From contig NZ_UCOB01000006.1 in assembly GCF_900474295.1 (NCBI RefSeq), forward strand, positions 1-64,000: 64,000 nucleotides of DNA. The letters run 5' to 3'. The notes beneath the pieces are model-generated. The model had not been told where the DNA came from. It was given only the letters and a program-made list of their open reading frames with translations, and did not search any database. The translations under genes and the position numbers were made by a program. Shown one piece after another: positions 7,890 through 17,613 of this stretch (position 1 is the first letter of the stretch; each line of letters begins with the position of its first letter). Source of the stretch: Synechococcus sp. UW140 (GTDB taxonomy: Bacteria > Cyanobacteriota > Cyanobacteriia > PCC-6307 > Cyanobiaceae).

Positions 7890-9080
7890 ATGCGCGATCG
7901 CTTGCTTTGGCTCACAAGCTTGTTGTTTGTCGCTTGGTTGGTCTGGGCAGAGACCAGTTTTCAGTTTTATGAGCAGTCACTCGGGCGGGATCTGGGCTTG
8001 TCCGTGAGTCGGGTTTCGTTGATTGCTGGCAGCTTTCTTGTGCCCTATGGATTGCTGCAAATTCCTGTCGGTCGCCTTCTCGATCAGGGACGTCTGGACC
8101 GTTGGTTGTGGATGGCTGCCCTGTTGGCCTCTGGATTCAGTGTCGCCTTTGCCTTCAGTCACGATTTGCCCGGTCTGATGCTCAGTCGTATGGGGATGGG
8201 CATGGCCTGTGCGGTGGCTTTCCCTGCCTCAGCGCTGATCGCCCGTAAGACGCTGCCAGCGAAGCGTTTTCCCTTGGCGATGGGGCTCACGGACAGCCTG
8301 CTGGGGTGGGGTGCTGCTTTCGCCGCCTTTGTGCCATTGGTCTTACCGACGGCGGCCTGGAGGCACCTAGTGATCGTTCAGGCGCTGTTGTTGGCGGTGC
8401 TGGTGGTTGTGCCTGTGATTGTCTTGACGCAAGGCAGGACGGTTCTGGTGTGTGCACCTGATCGACACCGCTCGCAGAGTGCTGATCCGTGGACCCCCAC
8501 AGCTGTAGGCCAAGTCATCCGAGCTTGTCTCATTTACGCGTGGGGCGGTGGGTTTGTCTTTGGTCTTGCCCAATACGGATTGATTTCTGGTCTGCGCGGT
8601 TGGAGCGGAGAGCGCATGCAGTGGATGTCACTGACGATGTCCCTGGGGATCGCCTTAGGCATGGTGCTGTCGGGATATCTCGGCAGCTGTGCGCTGCGTC
8701 GGGGGCGAGTGCTGCTGACAGGCACCGTGCTGAATGGATTGGCTCTTCTGGCTCTGTTGCAGCTCCCCAATCATGCGTCTGCGGCGCTGGTGGCGTCTGC
8801 GCTCTGTCTGGGTCTCGGGCTAGGTGCTGCAGTGCTCGCCTTCCCATTGGCAGAAGAAGGAGCTCCGCAGGGGCACACCGCTTTGACAGTGGCGATCGTG
8901 AACACCACTGGCACGGTGATGGGTGGGGTGATGGCGATTGTCTCTGGGCTGATCCTTCAGGCATCAGCCCCTGGGGATGTGATGCCTGTGCTGATGGTCT
9001 ATGGCCTACTGGCCTTGTTTGGCGTTGCCATCGCTTTGGGGCTGGTGTTCAGGCCATCGCTTGATCAAGGTCTGTCTTGA
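7890..9080 (+). CDS. Major facilitator superfamily transporter
   Basis: 396 aa from ATG 7890 (a GTG at 7881 is in frame). About 11-12 hydrophobic helices can be seen. The loop after helix 2 reads GRLLDQGRLDR, the MFS motif A, and helix 4 carries the RMGMGMACAVAFP signature. The substrate is unknown; the family moves sugars, drugs, organic acids or metabolites by proton-coupled antiport or symport. The 3' end overlaps the convergent BCCT gene by 16 bp. A HIP1-like GCGATCGC octamer covers codons 2-4. Confidence 0.85.
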   Translation: MRDRLLWLTSLLFVAWLVWAETSFQFYEQSLGRDLGLSVSRVSLIAGSFLVPYGLLQIPVGRLLDQGRLDRWLWMAALLASGFSVAFAFSHDLPGLMLSRMGMGMACAVAFPASALIARKTLPAKRFPLAMGLTDSLLGWGAAFAAFVPLVLPTAAWRHLVIVQALLLAVLVVVPVIVLTQGRTVLVCAPDRHRSQSADPWTPTAVGQVIRACLIYAWGGGFVFGLAQYGLISGLRGWSGERMQWMSLTMSLGIALGMVLSGYLGSCALRRGRVLLTGTVLNGLALLALLQLPNHASAALVASALCLGLGLGAAVLAFPLAEEGAPQGHTALTVAIVNTTGTVMGGVMAIVSGLILQASAPGDVMPVLMVYGLLALFGVAIALGLVFRPSLDQGLS

Positions 9081-10636
9081 CCGCTGCGCTGCGCTTCTTT
9101 CCAAGCCAACCGTGGAGCCGTCCATAGGGTCGCGAGCACGAGCGGGGTGACAGGAACCGCAGCAATCACAATGAAGGCCTGCAGAGCGTTGATCGATGTG
9201 GGATCGGTCAGGCTGGAGCCGACCCGGAGCAGCACTAGCGTGAGGCTGCCGATCATGAGAGCCCAGAAGAGGCGGAGTGGTGCTGGGGGTTCATCCCGGC
9301 CGCTCACCACCATGGCTGCGGCATAGCTCATCGAGTCGGCGCTGGTGCACATGAACAGCACCACCAGCAACAGACCAATTGGAATCAGAAGTCCCGACAG
9401 CGGAAGGTGGCTGAGGATCGTCAGCAATGTGGATGCGGCGGCATTGATGCCGTCGCTCTCAAGTGCACTGGTGATGTCCTTACCGTTCAGGTCTAGATAC
9501 ATGCCTGTTCCACCCACAAGCGTGAACCAGAGATTGGTGACCAGTGGGCAGAGAATGGCCACCGCAAGCACCAATTCCCGGATACTGCGTCCACGGCTCA
9601 CCCCGGCTGTGAACAGGCCCATCAGGGGTGCGTAGCCGAGGAACCAGCCCCAGTAGAAGATCGTCCACCAGTTGAGCCATTCGCCTGTTTGGGCATTGCG
9701 AGGAAGGAGGGCCATCTGGGGGAGATGAACCACATTGCTCAGCAGTGCGCTGAAGAAGTGTTGGATCAGCCAAAGTCCAGGGCCCAGAAGCAGCAGCCCA
9801 GCCGCCAGGGCGATGGTGAGCCACACGTTGAGCTCCGACAGCCATTTGATGCCTTTCTGAATGCCGCTGACGGTTGACGTGGCGAACACGGCAGTCAGTA
9901 GGACGACCACGAGCGATTGCAGACCAGCACTGTTGGTGATCCATGGCAGTTGGCCGGCAGCATCGCTGAGCTGAAGGGAGAGAAACCCAAGCGGCCCCAC
10001 GGTGCCGGCGATTGCTGCGACCACTGAAAGGCCATCGGCGAGATCGCCGATGGGTCCGTCCACCCACCCCCTTGGCAGCACAGTGACCAAAAGGGTGCGG
10101 GGGCGAAGGGGTTCACCACGCCGCTCCAGAATCGAAAACGTGATGGTGGTAGTGGTGGCAACCAGGGCCCAGGCGAGGAATCCCCAGTGCAGAAAACTCA
10201 CGGCCAGGGCTGGATCCACGGCCGCAGCCGTTTTCCCCTCAACCCCTGCTGCTTGGAACAGAGGGGAAGGGGTGAGGTAGTGAAACAGCGGTTCGGCTGC
10301 TGACCAGAACACGCCGCCGCCGGCGAGCAGGGTGCAGATCAAGACTGCACACCAGTCAAAGAACTTGAAACTTGGTTTCGCGTTCTCACCCCCCAGTCTC
10401 AGCTTCCCCACAGGGCTCACTGCGATGGCCAGCGCGATCAGGAACAGCAGCAGCACCATCCACTGCCAGAGCCCACCGAGCAGCGTGCTGATCAGTTCTT
10501 GGCCCTGATCGGTGAACTTTTTGGCCAGGGCCAGGTCGATGGCTGACACGACCAGGAACACCAGCAAAGGGCCTGCTCCCACCCATAGGGGTGGTTGGCG
10601 CCACCAGGGGCGAGGGGAAGGGGTGGATTGCGGCAT
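9065..10636 (-). CDS. BCCT family transporter (betaine/carnitine/choline type)
   Basis: 523 aa with 12 predicted helices. BCCT carriers take up quaternary ammonium or related zwitterionic solutes coupled to Na+ or H+. The family signature is clear: GGGVFWSAAEPL in helix 4 and WWTIFYWGWFLGYAPLMG followed by SRGRSIREL in helix 8. In characterised glycine-betaine carriers the helix-8 segment carries more tryptophans (WAWWISWSP); here two appear as Phe and Tyr, so the ligand may not be glycine betaine (inference from remembered family sequences). It is the last gene of a four-gene minus-strand run, 36 bp after the FAD-dependent oxidase, which suggests it imports or exports that pathway's substrate. 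Confidence 0.93.
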   Translation of the reverse strand: MPQSTPSPRPWWRQPPLWVGAGPLLVFLVVSAIDLALAKKFTDQGQELISTLLGGLWQWMVLLLFLIALAIAVSPVGKLRLGGENAKPSFKFFDWCAVLICTLLAGGGVFWSAAEPLFHYLTPSPLFQAAGVEGKTAAAVDPALAVSFLHWGFLAWALVATTTTITFSILERRGEPLRPRTLLVTVLPRGWVDGPIGDLADGLSVVAAIAGTVGPLGFLSLQLSDAAGQLPWITNSAGLQSLVVVLLTAVFATSTVSGIQKGIKWLSELNVWLTIALAAGLLLLGPGLWLIQHFFSALLSNVVHLPQMALLPRNAQTGEWLNWWTIFYWGWFLGYAPLMGLFTAGVSRGRSIRELVLAVAILCPLVTNLWFTLVGGTGMYLDLNGKDITSALESDGINAAASTLLTILSHLPLSGLLIPIGLLLVVLFMCTSADSMSYAAAMVVSGRDEPPAPLRLFWALMIGSLTLVLLRVGSSLTDPTSINALQAFIVIAAVPVTPLVLATLWTAPRLAWKEAQRSGQDRP

Positions 10637-10672
10637 GGATTTCTGGGGAGGGAGCGAGGCGCGGACGTCGAT

Positions 10673-11863
10673 TTAGGGGCGCACTGCCTGACGCTGGTGG
10701 CTCCAGCAGCTCAGATCAACAGCTGGTTGTTCGCCACGGGCTAGTCGGGCGAGTGAGTCACCGATGAGTGGTGCGAATTTGAAGGATTGGCCCGATCCCC
10801 CTGCGAACAGGCTCAGTTTCGGGGTGAGACGATCCAGCACGAAGTTCACATCGCTGGTCATGGAGTATGGGCTGATCACCGTTTCAACGCGTTCCTGCAC
10901 GCCTTCGAGGTTGTTGAACAGGAAATGGTCCAGCAGCTCGACCAGTCGTGGCGGTGGTTCGCTGCTCATGGCGTTGGGTTCAGCTACGCGCAGCTCTTTC
11001 GGTGCCCAGTCGATCCCGCTTTTGATCCTTGGCCTGCCATCCTCTGTTCGGCTCAAGACGGGGAAGCCGTAATACAGCCCGCCGTCATCGCCACGCTCCT
11101 GCTGGAAGCAGAACCATTGCGGGTAACGGTCGGCGAGGTTTGGATCCACCGTGTAGTGGGCCCAAAGCATCGGCCAGATCTCGAGCTTGGGAGCAAGACC
11201 GAGGGGGGCGAGCAGCAACTGGCTCCAGATTCCGCAAGCCACCACCACCTGGTCGGCTGCGATGTGATGGCCATTCTCCAGGCGGACACCGCCGCCATCA
11301 GCATCAATGCTGCTGACTGGGCTGTGCTCGATCAGTTGATGGCCAGCGTTGCGGGCGGTGCGAATCCAATGGGCGATTACTTTGTCGCTACGCACCGCAC
11401 CCGCCGTGGGTTCAAACAGGCCGGTGAACTCCGCTTTGGGTTTCAGCGGGAAGCGGGCTGCAATCTCAGCCGCATTGAGTGCTTCGTAAGGAATGCCCTG
11501 GTCATCCATCACTCTGCGCGCTCCAGGGATCGATCCCTCGATCGTTTCCTCATTCCAGCTTTCGCCGTAGAAGAGCAACCCGTGGGTTTGGCGCAGTGTT
11601 TCGCCGGCGTGGGTTTCTTCCTTTCGCCACAGCCTGTTGGCTTCCTGGGCTAGACGGCACAGCACCGGGTCGGAGTACATCTCGCGGAACATCCGGGTTT
11701 CGCCGAAGCTGCTGGCTTTGGCATGGGCCAGGGTCTGGGCCTCAACCAACACCACATCAGTGATGCCACTGCGCGCTAATGAAGCCGCGCAGCTCAGGCC
11801 TGCCATGCCACCGCCAACGATGACGACAGACGTCTGAGCTGGAATGGGGGCAGGACTGGTCAT
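10673..11863 (-). CDS. FAD-dependent amine oxidase, sarcosine oxidase / N-methyltryptophan oxidase-like
   Basis: 396 aa. The N-terminus has the ADP-binding loop VIVGGGMAG (14-22), followed by SSFGETRMFREMY, the motif of the monomeric sarcosine oxidase / MTOX family, and GGSGQSFKFAPLIG near the C-terminus. The family oxidises secondary (often N-methyl) amino acids to imines with H2O2 release. In characterised members FAD is attached to a cysteine in a segment that here reads ISPYSMTSD, with no cysteine, so FAD may be non-covalent or the reaction may differ. The start overlaps the stop of the dehydrogenase gene upstream by 4 bp (ATGA), indicating translational coupling. Confidence 0.88.
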   Translation of the reverse strand: MTSPAPIPAQTSVVIVGGGMAGLSCAASLARSGITDVVLVEAQTLAHAKASSFGETRMFREMYSDPVLCRLAQEANRLWRKEETHAGETLRQTHGLLFYGESWNEETIEGSIPGARRVMDDQGIPYEALNAAEIAARFPLKPKAEFTGLFEPTAGAVRSDKVIAHWIRTARNAGHQLIEHSPVSSIDADGGGVRLENGHHIAADQVVVACGIWSQLLLAPLGLAPKLEIWPMLWAHYTVDPNLADRYPQWFCFQQERGDDGGLYYGFPVLSRTEDGRPRIKSGIDWAPKELRVAEPNAMSSEPPPRLVELLDHFLFNNLEGVQERVETVISPYSMTSDVNFVLDRLTPKLSLFAGGSGQSFKFAPLIGDSLARLARGEQPAVDLSCWSHQRQAVRP

Positions 11864-12915
11864 TCCGTTTCTCCGAAACTGAGACCGATGGGCTCCGTGC
11901 GGGGGGCTGCAGCCACTTGATTCAGGGCAGCCCCCACAGACAGGCCTTGATCGCGTTGGTTCAGATACTTGCTGGCGCGTTGGCGCACTTCATCCCTAAC
12001 GAATGTGTAAACGTCCTCAGCACCGGCACCTTTCCAGGCTTCAGGGGAGAAGCGTTCAATCGAGTCGGCAATCACGGCTCCCGCATTAACCAGAGGATCG
12101 GGCAAAACAGGTATGTCACGCTCCCTCAGGCTCTCGGCCAGCTGGGGATCCTGGAAGGGTGCATTGGCGGCGGGGACCACCGCCTTGGTCCGCAGCGCCG
12201 CGGTGATCGAGGCATCTATCAGGCCTGAGATCGAGCAGGGCAGCAACAGATCCAGCTCCAGTTCCCACCAAGGACAATCGTTGGGAAGAGGTGTTGCGCC
12301 TTTGAAGCCGGCTCGCTCCCGGCTCAGATCAACGGTGAACACTGTCCAGCCGTGGTCCACCAAGGTGCGGGCGACCGTGCCGCCCACGGCGCCGCAACCG
12401 TGAACCAGGGCGCGCCCTGGTTCAGCATCTTCCAGTTTGTTGCCCAGCACGGCTTCCACAGCACCAAGGGTGCCGTGGGCAGTGGCAGCGCTGGCATCCA
12501 CCGGACTGCCCACCGCTGCCAGCACATGGGGCGTCAAGGCGGTCAGACGCTCCATGTCTTCGAGGCTGGTGTTGAGATCACAGCCTGTGATCATTGCCCC
12601 GTCCAGAGATTCGAGAAGCTCTGCGGTGACGCTGATCAATTCCTCTTTCACCGCTTCTGGGTCGGAGGCGCGAGCAACGATCTTGCCGCCTGCGAAACCG
12701 GTGCCGTAGAGATCGTGCTTGTGGGTCATCAGGCCAGCCAGGCGCTGTCCGTCAGCGATGCAGGCTTCATCGCTCGGGTAATTGAGCAGCCGAAGGCCAC
12801 CATTCGCCGGCCTCTTGGCATCCGTGGCTTCGGCCACCACAAAGACGGAGAGATGGTCGGAGACGTGTTCCGCCAGAACCGTCACCGGCGGCGTGTGATC
12901 TGTGGCGCTGCCCAT
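11860..12915 (-). CDS. Glu/Leu/Phe/Val dehydrogenase family protein
   Basis: 351 aa from ATG 12915, whose A is shared with the TGA of the upstream methyltransferase. The family deaminates amino acids to 2-oxoacids with NAD(P)+. Substrate-binding K66 (MTHK), catalytic K78 (GFAGGK) and the aspartate D113 (TGCDLNTS) are all retained, and the nucleotide loop reads GCGAVGG (173-179). It is therefore probably active. It resembles leucine dehydrogenases and the tryptophan-dehydrogenase branch (ScyB) known from other cyanobacteria more than glutamate dehydrogenase; the amino acid cannot be fixed from sequence. A longer frame to 13062 overlaps the methyltransferase and is rejected. Tight coupling on both sides implies one pathway. 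Confidence 0.9.
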   Translation of the reverse strand: MGSATDHTPPVTVLAEHVSDHLSVFVVAEATDAKRPANGGLRLLNYPSDEACIADGQRLAGLMTHKHDLYGTGFAGGKIVARASDPEAVKEELISVTAELLESLDGAMITGCDLNTSLEDMERLTALTPHVLAAVGSPVDASAATAHGTLGAVEAVLGNKLEDAEPGRALVHGCGAVGGTVARTLVDHGWTVFTVDLSRERAGFKGATPLPNDCPWWELELDLLLPCSISGLIDASITAALRTKAVVPAANAPFQDPQLAESLRERDIPVLPDPLVNAGAVIADSIERFSPEAWKGAGAEDVYTFVRDEVRQRASKYLNQRDQGLSVGAALNQVAAAPRTEPIGLSFGETE

Positions 12916-13952
12916 CAGCCCACCCGTTCCATCATTTGATGGTGCTCGACGTAATCGAGACTCCACTCGCTCGGCGCAGCAGCAATTCGCTCTTGCAGGC
13001 GTTGATACACCGTGTCTGCAGCTTGATCGCCTGCGGCGGAAGCAAAGCTGTGACGGCTCCAACTGCGGATCGTGGCCATCAGTCCTGCCGCGAACGTGGC
13101 GGTGTCACCGTCCTCGTTCCAGCGGCGGCGATAAGGGCACTTCACATAGGCCGTTCGCTCATCCACCAGGCGAAGACCGTTGCGGTATGCCGGCGACGAC
13201 TGGTCTTTGAGGGGGGCCATGAACTCCGTCGGTGACTTGTAGAAGTTGTTGACGGTGCCATTGCGGTATTGCTCCTCGCTAATCAGTCCTTCGTCGGCCA
13301 TGCCGCGCCAGATCTGATGGAGCTGGTCGTGCACATTGCGGGTTTCCCCTCCGTTGTGCCCCAGATAGCGACCCTGTTCATCGCGTGAAAGATTCACGGT
13401 TAACAGTCGCCCTCCCACCTTGAGCTCGCGGCTGCGCAGTTCAAGGACGTAGTTCCAGTCTTTCAGCGCTTGGGCCGTGAAGCGTTCCAAGGCTTCGCTA
13501 TCGCCGGAGGCAAGCACATGGGTATGGGTATTGAGCGGACCTGGAGAGGCGCTCAGCCAGTGCATCGCGGTGGCGGAGAAGCCGAAACTCACCGTGTCTG
13601 GTGCCACGGAGGGCTCATAGAAACTGCGAGCACTCACTAAGACGGTCGGCTTCGGGGACCGAGGAATCTGGAGGGCCAAGTTTTCCGCCAAGGCCACGTT
13701 GTCGTTGCTTGGCAGGTCATTGCCGATCAGCGTCAGATGCGCCTCAGGCTGGTTGGCATGCAGGCGATCCAGAATCTGGTTCCAGAGACCAACAGCGGTG
13801 CCACCATCGGCAGCTCCGTAGTCGATTAGCACGTGGCTGTTTTGGGCAGCCAGGGAATCCACACAAGTCAAGGCCCAGTCCGAAGCAGCTTCGATGCAGA
13901 GCAGAGCTCCTTCGGTCTGTGCGCTGTAACCCGTGGTCATGGCGATGGCCAT
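12915..13952 (-). CDS. SABATH family SAM-dependent methyltransferase (carboxyl- or N-methyltransferase)
   Basis: 345 aa from ATG 13952 (13940 is an alternative). The hallmarks of the plant salicylate/jasmonate/caffeine methyltransferase family are plain: SAM loop DYGAADGG (44-51), NDLPSND (78-84), SARSFYEPS (107-115), AMHWLS (129-134) and NNFYKSPTEF. Plant members methylate carboxylates of small acids or ring nitrogens of xanthosine. A bacterial copy next to an amino acid dehydrogenase and an N-methyl-amine oxidase homologue suggests a small amino-acid-derived substrate. A longer frame to 14105 overlaps rdgB and is rejected. The stop overlaps the next gene's start by one base. Confidence 0.88.
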   Translation of the reverse strand: MAIAMTTGYSAQTEGALLCIEAASDWALTCVDSLAAQNSHVLIDYGAADGGTAVGLWNQILDRLHANQPEAHLTLIGNDLPSNDNVALAENLALQIPRSPKPTVLVSARSFYEPSVAPDTVSFGFSATAMHWLSASPGPLNTHTHVLASGDSEALERFTAQALKDWNYVLELRSRELKVGGRLLTVNLSRDEQGRYLGHNGGETRNVHDQLHQIWRGMADEGLISEEQYRNGTVNNFYKSPTEFMAPLKDQSSPAYRNGLRLVDERTAYVKCPYRRRWNEDGDTATFAAGLMATIRSWSRHSFASAAGDQAADTVYQRLQERIAAAPSEWSLDYVEHHQMMERVG

Positions 13953-14004
13953 CGACCTCGTCAGCGTCAGATTGCACGGTACAGCGCTGCCTAGGCCTGA
14001 CTCG

Positions 14005-14592
14005 CTACACAACCTTAAGAAGCTCGCGCAGCTTTGGCTCCAGCTGCATGAAGGCAAGGCCGCGATGGCTAAGGCGCTCTTTGGTGTCTGACGGCATCTC
14101 TGCAAAGGTCAGGTCGGTGCCGGTTGCTTCGAAGATGGGGTCGTATCCAAAGCCATCCTCCCCCCGTGGTTCCTGGGTGATTCGTCCTAGGCAACGGCCC
14201 TCGACTTCGGCCAGCACGCGGCCATCGGGGGCGGCGATGCAGAGAGCAGCACTGAAGTGTGCCTCACGGTTTGTGTTGGCGCCTAACTGCAAGAGCAGGC
14301 GGGTGATCCGTGCTTCATCTGTGTCGGCATAGCGCGCGGAGTAGACGCCGGGAGCGCCTCCGAGGGCTTCCACGCTCAATCCCGAATCATCGGCCAGAGC
14401 CCAATGGTCGGTTGCAGCGGCCACGGCAATGGCTTTGATCCTTGCATTTTCGCTGAAGCTGGTGCCAGTTTCCTCCACATCCATGTCGCTGGGCTGGGGC
14501 TTCAGGTTCAGAGGTAAATGGGCCAGCAGGCGAGCGAATTCACGGATCTTTCCGGCATTGCCGCTGGCGATGACCAGGGTGCGAGGTCTCAT
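14005..14592 (-). CDS. rdgB: Non-canonical purine NTP pyrophosphatase, RdgB/HAM1 type
   Basis: 195 aa. Hydrolyses dITP/ITP and XTP to monophosphates, cleaning the nucleotide pool of deaminated purines. Motifs: N-terminal LVIASGNAGKIREF, the metal site ADDSGLSVEALGGAPGVYS and the late GFGYDPIF, all intact; length is normal. It is 31 bp downstream of the phosphohexomutase and 52 bp upstream of the SABATH methyltransferase, so it may share a transcript with both, though it has no obvious role in the downstream module. Confidence 0.96.
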   Translation of the reverse strand: MRPRTLVIASGNAGKIREFARLLAHLPLNLKPQPSDMDVEETGTSFSENARIKAIAVAAATDHWALADDSGLSVEALGGAPGVYSARYADTDEARITRLLLQLGANTNREAHFSAALCIAAPDGRVLAEVEGRCLGRITQEPRGEDGFGYDPIFEATGTDLTFAEMPSDTKERLSHRGLAFMQLEPKLRELLKVV

Positions 14593-14623
14593 CGTGGCGA
14601 AAGGGAGAGTTGCGGAGATGGGC

Positions 14624-16084
14624 TCAGATCGCGGTGGCGAAGTTCTTGGCCCAGGTGAGCACCGTCTCGACTTGTTCGGAGCTGGGCGCTTCGCAGTACA
14701 GCCGCAGCAGTGGTTCGGTGCCGGAGAATCGGAGCATGAGCCAGTGGCTGGGGCCGAGCCGCAGCTTCACTCCGTCGATGGACATCACCTCTTGCACCGG
14801 TGTGCCGGCAACCTCCTTGGGTGGGTTCTGCGACAACAGTGTTTCGAGGCGGCGGCGGGAGGCCATGTCGGCCAGGCGCAGGTCCACACGGTCGTAATGG
14901 CTGGCTCCACCGCAGCGATCCTGTAGCGATGTCACTCTGGCGCCAAGCGGTTTGCCCCCTTCGACAAGCGCTTCGAGCACCAGTAGGGCTGCAAACAGGG
15001 CATCCCGTTCAGGCAGATGCATGCCGAAGCCCACACCACCGGATTCTTCACCGCCGATCAGCACCTCTCCGTTCAGCATCTGGGAGGCGATGTATTTGAA
15101 GCCCACAGGCAGTTCCAGCACCTCACGGTCAAGGTCTTCGGCGACTAGACGCATCAGGTCTGAACCGCTCACTGTTTTCACGACTGAGCCGGGAAGTTGG
15201 CGTGCACGCGCTAGATGGTCGATCAGCAGAGGCATCAGTTGTTGCGTACTGCAGAAATGCCCCTGCTCATCCACCGCAGCAATGCGGTCGCCGTCGCCGT
15301 CAAATACCAGGCCCACAGCTGGAGAACCGCTTGCACTCGTCTCCTTCACGGTGGTGATCAATTCCTGCAAGTAACGGGCGAGAGGCTCAGGTGGGTTGCC
15401 GCCGAACAGAGGGTCGCGGCAGCTGCGGATTTCACGGACTGGTCCATCCGGGCCACCGAGCAGCTCGGCCATGCACCCGGCGGCAGAGCCATGCATGGGA
15501 TCAACAATGACCTTCAGGTTCATGGCATCAAGGCCGCGGCGTAGGCCATCAAGGTCGACCTTGGTTCGCAGAGATGCCAGATGCTCCGCTCTGGCGTCAA
15601 ACCGCTCGGTATCGCCTTGGATGGCTGCGGTGATGCCTCCCGCCGCTAGGCGCTTCTCGACTGCTGAGGTGAAGTCGCCCTCCACCGACCCTCCAAACGG
15701 GCCTTTGATCTTCAGCCCCAACCATTCCGGTGGGTTATGGCTGGCAGTAATCACCAGTGCCCCGAGTGCTTGACGTTCCACGACTGCTGAGCTGCAGGCA
15801 GGGGTGGGCACGGCGGTGGTGCTGAGGAGCGGTTTGAGGCCGCAGCCGCGCACTGCTGAAGCAATCGCCTCGGCGAGTTCTGGTGCAAGGAAGCGGCGGT
15901 CGTATCCGATCACCACAGTTTCACTCGCGTTGCTGGGCGGAGCTCGATGCGCCAGTTCCTGAGCTGAAGCGGCAGCAACCATCAGCAGGCGTTCCACGGT
16001 GATGTCGACCCCGAGGATCCCCCGCCATCCATCGGTGCCGAACTGGATTGGCGAGGCAGCGAGAGGTAGGGGAGCTGAAGCCAT
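14624..16084 (-). CDS. Phosphoglucomutase / phosphomannomutase family protein
   Basis: 486 aa. Interconverts hexose 1- and 6-phosphates through a phosphoserine. The active-site serine is S115 in TASHNPPEW, the Mg loop is DGDGDR (about residues 260-270), the sugar loop is GGEESGG, and the C-terminal phosphate-binding segment is RFSGTEPLLRLY. All four domains are present. Cyanobacteria carry more than one such mutase, so glucose versus mannose specificity is not assigned. It heads a six-gene minus-strand run that ends with the BCCT transporter. Confidence 0.93.
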   Translation of the reverse strand: MASAPLPLAASPIQFGTDGWRGILGVDITVERLLMVAAASAQELAHRAPPSNASETVVIGYDRRFLAPELAEAIASAVRGCGLKPLLSTTAVPTPACSSAVVERQALGALVITASHNPPEWLGLKIKGPFGGSVEGDFTSAVEKRLAAGGITAAIQGDTERFDARAEHLASLRTKVDLDGLRRGLDAMNLKVIVDPMHGSAAGCMAELLGGPDGPVREIRSCRDPLFGGNPPEPLARYLQELITTVKETSASGSPAVGLVFDGDGDRIAAVDEQGHFCSTQQLMPLLIDHLARARQLPGSVVKTVSGSDLMRLVAEDLDREVLELPVGFKYIASQMLNGEVLIGGEESGGVGFGMHLPERDALFAALLVLEALVEGGKPLGARVTSLQDRCGGASHYDRVDLRLADMASRRRLETLLSQNPPKEVAGTPVQEVMSIDGVKLRLGPSHWLMLRFSGTEPLLRLYCEAPSSEQVETVLTWAKNFATAI

Positions 16085-16149
16085 GGACGGCTGGAGGGAA
16101 GCAGGCGTTCGATTCAGGATCTAGCAGCGGGCCGCCGTAACGTCGGGCG

Positions 16150-17613
16150 ATGGGTGACACCCCTTTTGCTGACAAGCCACTCACCGATCGCCTGTTGCGC
16201 AGCTGGGTGCGTTGCCGGCGTCGGGCCTGGCTGGATCGGCATGGTGATTCCCGCGCCAGGATCTACACCGCCCATCGCACCCTCCAGCTCGACGATCAGC
16301 AACGCAGTTTTGTGGCTTTGCTGCCGAAGAAGCCCGCAGCGGGGCTTCCCGGCTTGGCCGAGGGTGCCCCTGGTGTAGTGGGTGTTCGTTTGACAGGACA
16401 GGGGCCCGATGGCCTTCCCCTGGAGGCGCATCCGCCGCTGCTTGAACGGGTGGCCGGCAGCAGCCGCTGGGGAGACTTCGCCTATCGCCCAGTGCTTGCC
16501 CGTCAGGGACGGAGGCTCACCCGTGAACATCGCTTCCCCCTTGCCCTGGCGGGACAATTACTCGCGGATTTGCAGCAGTCGCCCGTGGGAGAGGCTCTCG
16601 CGGTTGCAGGAGCTGGGCGACGGTTGGAGAAGGAACGGCTGCCCCTCAATGCAGCCCTTCAGCGCCAGTTGGATGAAGCGTTGGTCAAGTTGGCGGCTGA
16701 TTTACAGCGTTTGGATCCGCCTCCGCTAGCGGCCGACCGACGCAAATGCACACTCTGTAGCTGGAGAGGCCTCTGCAATGCCGAGGCCGCGTCTGAAGGA
16801 CATCTCAGCGAAGTGAGTGGAATCGGGGCGAAACGCCGCGAGATGCTCCAGGAGTTAGGGATCCATGGCCTCAAGGACTTGGCGGCGGCTGATCCTGCAC
16901 TGTTGGCCACTCAGCTCGAGCGCTACGGCGAACAGCACGGTGCGGTGGCACTTCCGTTGGTCGTCCAAGCCCGGGCCCAACGTGATGGTCTGGTGGAGCG
17001 ACTTGATCCAGCTCCGAGTCTTCCCGAACTGGCGATGGCGGGAGGGGTGTTGCTTTACGACATCGAGTCGGATCCCGATGCTCGCGATGACTTCCTGCAT
17101 GGTTTTGTTTGCCTGCCGCGTGACCCGTCAGGCCGCTGGGACCTCGCTCGAGCCCGTTATCACCCACTGCTGGTGCTCCAGGAACATGGCGAGAAGCGTT
17201 CTTGGCTGAGGCTGCGACGTTTGCTGGCTTCTTACGCCGACTGGCCGATTCTTCATTACGGCGAGACCGAATCGCTGGCTTTGAAACGCATGGCGCAGCG
17301 TCAGGGGGGCAGTGATCGCCTGTTGGAGAGCAACAAGCGTCGGTTGGTGGATGTGCATGCCCGGGTGCGGCATCACTGGCGATTACCGCTCAACAGTTAT
17401 GGCCTTAAGTCCGTCGCCGCATGGCGCGGTTTTCAGTGGCGCCAACGCAGTGTGGACGGAGCCCGTGCGCTGTTGTGGTGGCGGCAGTGGCGGGGATCCG
17501 GTCCTCTCGATCGCGGACATCACCAAACCTTGCGCTGGATTTTTACTTACAACGAAGATGATTGCCTGGCGACATGGGCGGTTGCCTCATGGTTGTTGGA
17601 GCAAGACAAGTAA
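16150..17613 (+). CDS. TM0106-type RecB-like nuclease fused to an RNase H-like exonuclease domain
   Basis: 487 aa. Three parts are visible. Residues 1-210 resemble a RecB/Cas4-like nuclease with one cysteine near the start (C22) and C200-x2-C-x5-C at its end, the pattern of an iron-sulfur staple. The expected metal-site lysine appears to be arginine (D109, then E126-H-R128), so this half may be degenerate. Residues 216-255 look like a helix-hairpin-helix (SEVSGIGAKRREMLQELG). The last ~190 residues carry LLYDIESDP and NEDDCLATW, as in RNase H-like 3'-5' exonucleases. Likely a DNA processing enzyme of unknown pathway. No CRISPR genes are nearby. Confidence 0.82.
   Translation: MGDTPFADKPLTDRLLRSWVRCRRRAWLDRHGDSRARIYTAHRTLQLDDQQRSFVALLPKKPAAGLPGLAEGAPGVVGVRLTGQGPDGLPLEAHPPLLERVAGSSRWGDFAYRPVLARQGRRLTREHRFPLALAGQLLADLQQSPVGEALAVAGAGRRLEKERLPLNAALQRQLDEALVKLAADLQRLDPPPLAADRRKCTLCSWRGLCNAEAASEGHLSEVSGIGAKRREMLQELGIHGLKDLAAADPALLATQLERYGEQHGAVALPLVVQARAQRDGLVERLDPAPSLPELAMAGGVLLYDIESDPDARDDFLHGFVCLPRDPSGRWDLARARYHPLLVLQEHGEKRSWLRLRRLLASYADWPILHYGETESLALKRMAQRQGGSDRLLESNKRRLVDVHARVRHHWRLPLNSYGLKSVAAWRGFQWRQRSVDGARALLWWRQWRGSGPLDRGHHQTLRWIFTYNEDDCLATWAVASWLLEQDK

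Follow-up and report, generated by a model that had tools for sequence, protein, structure and literature searches.

A block of four genes on the minus strand of Synechococcus sp. UW140 is likely to be an operon for the biosynthesis and transport of homarine (N-methylpicolinate), judging from the families of its proteins, their conserved residues, and the persistence of the block in related genomes. The window analyzed here is the whole 64,000-nucleotide stretch at positions 1 to 64,000 of contig NZ_UCOB01000006.1, from a genome of 2.70 Mb that is 99.98% complete. Listed in the order of transcription, the block holds a SABATH-family S-adenosylmethionine (SAM) methyltransferase (12915–13952; 345 amino acids [aa] from a conserved ATG), an amino acid dehydrogenase of the Glu/Leu/Phe/Val (ELFV) family (11860–12915; 351 aa from an ATG), a NikD-like flavin oxidase belonging to the monomeric sarcosine oxidase (MSOX) family (10673–11863; 396 aa), and a BCCT-family carrier (9065–10636; 523 aa). 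The first two genes overlap by 1 bp and the second and third by 4 bp, and 36 bp separate the oxidase from the carrier. This layout, first read from the letters of the sequence in a first-pass annotation, is confirmed by the open reading frame (ORF) coordinates, and its family assignments by Pfam: PF03492 for the methyltransferase (78.2 bits, cut-off 29.8), PF00208 and PF02812 for the dehydrogenase (55.4 and 30.2 bits, cut-offs 23.4 and 25.3), PF01266 for the oxidase (159.7 bits, cut-off 27.9), and PF02028 for the carrier (425.9 bits, cut-off 27). The listed ORF of the dehydrogenase begins upstream of the ATG used here; that of the methyltransferase starts upstream at a TTG, and aligned homologues begin MAIAMTT.

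In the proposed pathway, the dehydrogenase would deaminate L-lysine at C2, and the resulting 2-oxo-6-aminohexanoate would close spontaneously to piperideine-2-carboxylate (P2C). The flavin oxidase, by its homology and residues, would then remove four electrons from P2C to give picolinate, the SABATH enzyme would use SAM to methylate the ring nitrogen, yielding the zwitterionic solute homarine, and the carrier would take up or retain it. Each type of reaction has a precedent, and a route from lysine through P2C to picolinate is known; what would be new is the combination and the activity proposed for the dehydrogenase. We hold it rather probable that these genes underlie homarine in the picocyanobacteria of the ocean: a lysine-fed pathway of three enzymes, with the first ELFV-family lysine 2-dehydrogenase and a NikD-like aromatizing oxidase without covalent flavin, near-core in two marine Synechococcus genera and found, as a block able to move, in some genomes of Prochlorococcus type. 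A carrier dedicated to the product would go with it, linked to the enzymes in the first clade but unlinked or missing in the second.

Homarine, a nitrogen-bearing solute, has been measured in particles from the surface ocean and in cultures of Synechococcus, diatoms, and Emiliania (PMC8269262, 2021; values corrected in PMC10134881). The 2021 paper describes its biosynthesis as uncharacterized, and other literature of that year likewise refers to a lack of genetic information on homarine synthesis. In the open literature, subscription journals and preprints lying outside the search, none of the papers listed named homarine biosynthesis genes in its title or in the abstract text shown, and the phrase "homarine biosynthesis" went unmatched. 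If the proposal is true, producers of homarine could be counted in metagenomes and transcriptomes, and its production could be related to salinity and nitrogen status.

Residues and relatives of the four proteins

Searches of the Protein Data Bank (PDB) placed NikD (2oln) ahead of sarcosine oxidase 7exs and of N-methyltryptophan oxidase as relatives of the oxidase, both with the single sequence (9e-33 over the full length, residues 12–390, against 1.5e-30 and 1.4e-23) and with a profile of 19 orthologues (1e-40, 3e-36, and 8e-26); the lead of NikD over 7exs is modest. Since that lead is small and plain identity does not separate the two, active-site residues were compared. NikD aromatizes P2C to picolinate, with Glu101 and Asp276 in its active site, Arg53 and Lys358 binding the carboxylate, and Trp355 in the flavin site. 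Arg53, Tyr258, Lys358, Glu101, and Asp276 of NikD align to R60, Y265, K362, E109, and D285 of the module oxidase. None of the five varies in the 50 rows of the alignment, ten of which come from a low-GC clade described below. A pair of the Glu101/Asp276 type occurs in none of 13 other MSOX-family proteins, one of them cut at the Asp site; this panel consists of three solved or named enzymes (7exs, 1zov, and SolA) and ten relatives from plasmids, drawn from the 25 matches listed of 265 records. The three enzymes have Ser and His at the sites of the pair. Equivalents of Arg53 and Lys358 are found in every readable panel member and so do not discriminate.

The first-pass annotation had placed the oxidase with the sarcosine and N-methyltryptophan oxidases. 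It does belong to their superfamily, with identities of 24.9%–33.1% and the carboxylate-binding Arg and Lys in common, but its Ser331 and Gln359 stand where 7exs, 1zov, and SolA carry the Cys that binds flavin covalently and the active-site His, and it carries the acidic pair of NikD with extra residues before it. It also scores below both curated NCBIfam cut-offs (187.7 against 257 bits for NF008425, N-methyl-L-tryptophan oxidase, its best match, and 136.6 against 479.65 for TIGR01377). Plain identity cannot decide between that assignment and NikD, but on these cut-offs and residues we rejected it and propose instead that the oxidase may convert P2C to picolinate. Its predicted model was weak (mean pLDDT 62) and was left out of the fold search. 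The nearest systems in the literature are those of nikkomycin (NikD) and caerulomycin (CrmD), where lysine-derived P2C is likewise oxidized by an MSOX-family flavoenzyme; in PMC11446937, the aminotransferase NikC/CrmC acts on lysine, cyclization gives P2C, and the NikD/CrmD homologue follows. The module differs in having a dehydrogenase where these systems have the lysine aminotransferase, and its product would be N-methylated, whereas theirs goes into an antibiotic.

The dehydrogenase shares its fold and the catalytic residues K66, K78, and D113 (51 of 51 rows) with leucine, phenylalanine, and tryptophan (ScyB) dehydrogenases. Its best profile match is leucine dehydrogenase 7vid (6e-36), and a fold search with its AlphaFold model (pLDDT 81) retrieved phenylalanine, leucine, and glutamate dehydrogenases, the best being phenylalanine dehydrogenase 1c1d (Z 34.9, rmsd 2.8, 324 residues aligned), with leucine dehydrogenase 8gxd at Z 31.3, rmsd 3.5, and 323 residues. 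In leucine dehydrogenase, Leu40 and Val294, equivalent to Lys89 and Ser380 of glutamate dehydrogenase, distinguish substrates (PMC2723916). Position 40, in a clear, ungapped alignment, holds Asn38 in all but one of the 51 rows (that one reads X), and position 294 is Asp284 in all 51 if the helix after the NAG motif is aligned ungapped; the pair recurs in more distant proteins that are 52% (genome G424) and 58%–60% (G030) identical. The Leu40/Val294 signature of leucine dehydrogenase is thus not found, with the same caveat of register at 294. A polar and an acidic residue at these positions would, by inference, suit a cationic side chain such as that of lysine, and from the residue pair and the logic of the pathway we propose that the enzyme is an L-lysine 2-dehydrogenase giving P2C. 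The best NCBIfam match is the ScyB tryptophan dehydrogenase, at 95.2 bits against an equivalog cut-off of 600. On that distance, and on the polar and acidic specificity positions, we rejected a tryptophan or indole substrate, and with it the indole-type signal that had been entertained at first.

The methyltransferase belongs to a bacterial branch of its family. Its best PDB match is a fatty acid O-methyltransferase (5f2k, 3e-17), followed by salicylate methyltransferase (SAMT; 1m6e, 4.5e-6), and 181 of its 345 residues are invariant across 40 rows. W132 of the module enzyme, kept in 50 of 50 rows, corresponds to Trp151, through which SAMT contacts the carboxylate; the residue that, judged by eye, probably matches SAMT Gln25 is not Gln (L/R/K/F at 17, L/R at 18). 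A precedent for methylation of a pyridine carboxylate on its ring nitrogen comes from the coffee trigonelline synthases CTgS1/2, SABATH enzymes of the same Pfam family that act on nicotinate (PMC8877179); the likeness is one of family, and the nearest solved relative of the module enzyme is, in contrast, the O-methyltransferase. By this analogy, the enzyme is proposed to N-methylate picolinate to homarine. It is the single PF03492 match in the genome that holds the window, as the carrier is its single BCCT, and both lie in the module.

The carrier resembles BetP, DddT, and the trimethylamine transporter in family and overall sequence. It scores 297.7 bits against the glycine-betaine equivalog NF047988, below the cut-off of 650, and Val159, Phe332, and Tyr335, invariant in 18 rows, replace the Tyr, Trp, and Trp of the trimethylamine transporter (8zw8); DddT (21fi) shares the last of these, Tyr335. 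BCCT carriers import betaines, and we propose that this one may transport homarine, a pyridinium betaine.

Conservation and distribution of the module

The four-gene order is unchanged in 39 of 39 loci fetched, which argues that the arrangement is not due to chance; the first-pass annotation had allowed that the genes might not be kept together in related genomes, and in Synechococcus they are. These loci comprise 18 from genomes of the window's family, picked by oxidase match, and 21 named loci picked by dehydrogenase match, among them Synechococcus WH7803 and, as the closest named relative (99% over the dehydrogenase), Synechococcus sp. UW105. The two sets are not fully independent, as one locus (L039) is nearly identical to the window and both sets may share species, and in five loci (L043, L046, L047, L048, and L056) a contig ends inside or at a module gene. 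With starts picked by script, the methyltransferase and dehydrogenase genes overlap in 35 of the 39 (28 by 1 bp, seven by 4 bp), and the dehydrogenase and oxidase genes overlap by 4 bp in 38.

Within the family, methyltransferase and oxidase are present in the same 19 of 151 genomes; the dehydrogenase occurs in all of these and in one other genome (G030). The oxidase is near-core in the window's genus (30 of 31 genomes; 24 of 24 of good quality) and in a second genus, g5 (28 of 34; 17 of 19 of good quality). No BCCT was found in either of the two good-quality g5 genomes that lack the oxidase (G690 and G707). Pairwise distances among the 39 Synechococcus rows correlate at r 0.76–0.92 between the enzymes and at 0.51–0.57 between enzymes and carrier.

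A profile search of 386 genomes of the phylum found the methyltransferase in 20, all within this family. One of them, G424, is a 1.7-Mb genome of another genus whose locus has 29.6% GC; in that genus, for which genome size and GC suggest Prochlorococcus, the methyltransferase is present in 10 of 200 genomes (four of 66 of good quality). All ten of these low-GC loci (L083 and L112–L120) hold the enzyme triad in the order seen in the window, with a 1-bp overlap between methyltransferase and dehydrogenase genes and protein identities of 49%–55%. Across both clades (50 rows), pairwise distances correlate between the three enzymes at r 0.97–0.98, largely through the two-clade split. Although the two clades are about 50% diverged, the three enzymes are thus inherited together in both, in fixed order and with genes that overlap or touch.

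The carrier behaves differently. All 39 Synechococcus loci have it next to the enzymes, so its membership of the module, as first read, stands there, but no BCCT lies beside the triad in any of the ten low-GC loci (6–20 kb fetched), where that part of the claim fails. Three low-GC genomes (G517, G581, and G651) have a BCCT elsewhere; these unlinked carriers (L132–L134) are 59%–60% identical to that of the window and keep V159, F332, and Y335 in three of three. Their presence, and the joint lack of oxidase and BCCT in the two g5 genomes, were counted for the carrier belonging to the unit. The core is therefore the enzyme triad; the carrier that goes with it is linked in Synechococcus, whereas in the low-GC clade one of the same type is unlinked or not found. 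Taken together, these patterns support the earlier expectation of one co-inherited functional unit, which probably produces and transports a betaine-like, N-methylated osmolyte of amino-acid origin; the connection to picolinate and homarine was no part of that first reading.

Evidence against the proposed homarine pathway and alternative products

Homarine was found in both Synechococcus strains tested, WH7803 and WH8102 (PMC8269262); after the 2023 correction (PMC10134881), which divided the values by 25, it reaches up to 18 mM, with the higher level in WH8102 and about 0.2 mM measured in WH7803. WH7803 carries the full module (L055). For WH8102, PMC2874817 predicts an operon SYNW0229–0233 that includes a BCCT, "BetT," at SYNW0229; its published gene count fits the module plus the ITPase-like gene upstream of it, and the operon is probably orthologous. 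That source files SYNW0229–0233 under betaine uptake and calls the other genes possible transporter subunits, a label that may have spread through annotations; if the homarine proposal is true, the carrier would need a new name.

Several observations weigh against the proposal. We know of no ELFV-family enzyme that acts on C2 of lysine, and the second residue of the specificity pair depends on register: two of five printed profile alignments (8gxd and 3vpx) place a two-residue gap before D284, shifting it off leucine dehydrogenase position 294, while two others (6acf and 5b37) are ungapped and 7vid ends one residue short. With single sequences, 7vid is ungapped through the site and 8gxd is gapped; an unbroken helix at 279–289 of the predicted model favors the ungapped register. 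As for the oxidase, 7exs shares slightly more identical residues with it in the MAFFT panel (33.1%, 353 columns) than NikD does (31.1%, 367 columns). Cys321 of NikD, which holds flavin adenine dinucleotide (FAD) covalently, is replaced by Ser331 in 49 of 50 rows by MAFFT, and the HMMER alignment sets position 329 (V/F/M) opposite it, with no Cys by either; Trp355 is replaced by Gln359 in 50 of 50. Because of these two replacements the oxidase is NikD-like rather than NikD, and its chemistry could differ; it forms a separate NikD-like branch, presumably with FAD bound noncovalently. PMC11446937 also proposes a NikD homologue that stops at partly oxidized P2C, so that the family may not always yield picolinate.

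The genomes raise further difficulties. G030 carries the dehydrogenase alone, and a whole-genome search of the ten low-GC triad genomes found a BCCT in only three and none in the other seven, although six of the ten are less than 90% complete and, of the four good-quality ones, one has a BCCT. WH7803 has the module and yet about 90-fold less homarine than WH8102, a gap that having or lacking the module does not account for. We found no report of homarine in Prochlorococcus, and the word does not occur in the accessible text of PMC10654061, on Prochlorococcus metabolites. Finally, PMC8269262 names a tryptophan–quinolinate route to homarine, citing work on shrimp. No tryptophan dioxygenase was found in the window's own genome, that one family being the one searched for, which makes a tryptophan–kynurenine source of picolinate less likely in this organism.

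Of the other products that these genes might make, the closest to homarine is a methyl ester of lysine-derived picolinate or dihydropicolinate, methylated on the carboxylate by the SABATH enzyme and serving as a signal or metal ligand. The nearest solved relatives of the methyltransferase (5f2k and 1m6e) are carboxyl O-methyltransferases, and the invariant W132, at the Trp contacting the carboxylate in SAMT, fits them; the site matched by eye to Gln25 does not. A partly oxidized ring of the kind proposed for a NikD homologue elsewhere (PMC11446937) would suit such an ester. We regard it as unlikely, since a carrier for zwitterions is linked to the enzymes in all 39 Synechococcus loci and what has been reported from these strains is homarine (PMC8269262). 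A five-membered version of the pathway, from ornithine through pyrroline-2-carboxylate to pyrrole-2-carboxylate and an N-methyl or ester derivative, would be compatible with N38/D284 in that the pair would also suit ornithine. MSOX-family enzymes do oxidize cyclic amines and imines. It is nevertheless improbable, because an N-methylpyrrole carboxylate is no zwitterion, which makes the BCCT carrier odd, and the NikD acidic pair points to a six-membered substrate.

Slightly less probable still is a catabolic or salvage unit, in which an N-methylated amino acid or betaine would be taken up, demethylated by the oxidase, and the product deaminated by the dehydrogenase. The import of betaines by BCCT carriers, the N-methyl-L-tryptophan oxidase model as best NCBIfam score (187.7 bits), and the 33.1% identity of 7exs to the oxidase all lean this way; the methyltransferase is left unexplained, the oxidase falls under both curated cut-offs (257 and 479.65) and lacks the Cys and His of 7exs, 1zov, and SolA, and the low-GC clade keeps the three enzymes together with the carrier elsewhere or not found. 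An aromatic or indole signal, made by a ScyB-like tryptophan or phenylalanine dehydrogenase and esterified as in indole-acetate or jasmonate, draws on ScyB as the best NCBIfam match and phenylalanine dehydrogenase as the best structural match, and on plant SABATH enzymes, which make such esters. We consider it very improbable: the ScyB score is 95.2 bits of the 600 required, Asn and Asp replace the nonpolar specificity residues, the NikD-like oxidase would have no role, and no ScyA- or ScyC-type gene was recognized by eye among the window ORFs, where no dedicated search was made. Synthesis of trigonelline (N-methylnicotinate) is hardly credible, as nicotinate comes from the NAD cycle, so that the dehydrogenase and flavin oxidase would lack a place. 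It does have the coffee SABATH precedent (PMC8877179); along the transect of PMC8269262, trigonelline was at 1–300 pM, below homarine at 0.02–2.7 nM after correction (PMC10134881). The homarine operon remains the reading that we prefer.

Neighboring genes and other observations

Directly upstream of the methyltransferase, on the same strand, lies an ITPase/HAM1-like gene (14005–14592, minus; named by eye) that is possibly co-transcribed with the module and is not thought part of the proposed pathway. It is present in 33 of the 39 Synechococcus loci; of the six without it, four start at a contig end and two (L031 and L035) lie in different surroundings. It had no match in the ten low-GC loci. 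In L031 and L035, the usual neighbors (ITPase-like, phosphoglucomutase-like, and carotenoid-oxygenase-like genes, named by eye) had no match in the 13 kb fetched, which indicates that the module moved as a block. L061 (G092) and L062 (G025) hold the module without its usual neighbors, with a psbA-like gene near it in the former and a GtrA-like membrane protein in the latter (names by eye), as if in genomic islands. A search for an RNA regulator gave no Rfam match at gathering thresholds in 8000–17000 of the window.

The orphan dehydrogenase of G030 (L060:8573–9583), from the same family, is 58%–60% identical to that of the module and has the Asn/Asp pair; that genome gave no oxidase, methyltransferase, or BCCT match, and its neighbors, inspected by eye, offered no clue to a pathway. 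Among 35 viral-contig stretches that matched a pattern, none encoded a relative of the methyltransferase. Plasmids gave three distant matches to the methyltransferase. On a plasmid of Rhizobium sp. CB3171 (L099:7830–10225), a SABATH gene 31% identical to that of the module directly precedes a flavin oxidoreductase, with transposases nearby. We rejected this pair as a relative of the module because the oxidoreductase matches the module oxidase at a tblastn E value of 0.68 at best, over 27 residues; it perhaps makes another methylated amino-acid product.

The carrier gene of the window has a history of its own. Compared in 200-base blocks with the module of a different genus (G061, L021), its DNA is about 97% identical over 9090–10600, against 69%–84% for the three enzyme genes, a pattern that points to a recent recombination in which the carrier gene alone was swapped.

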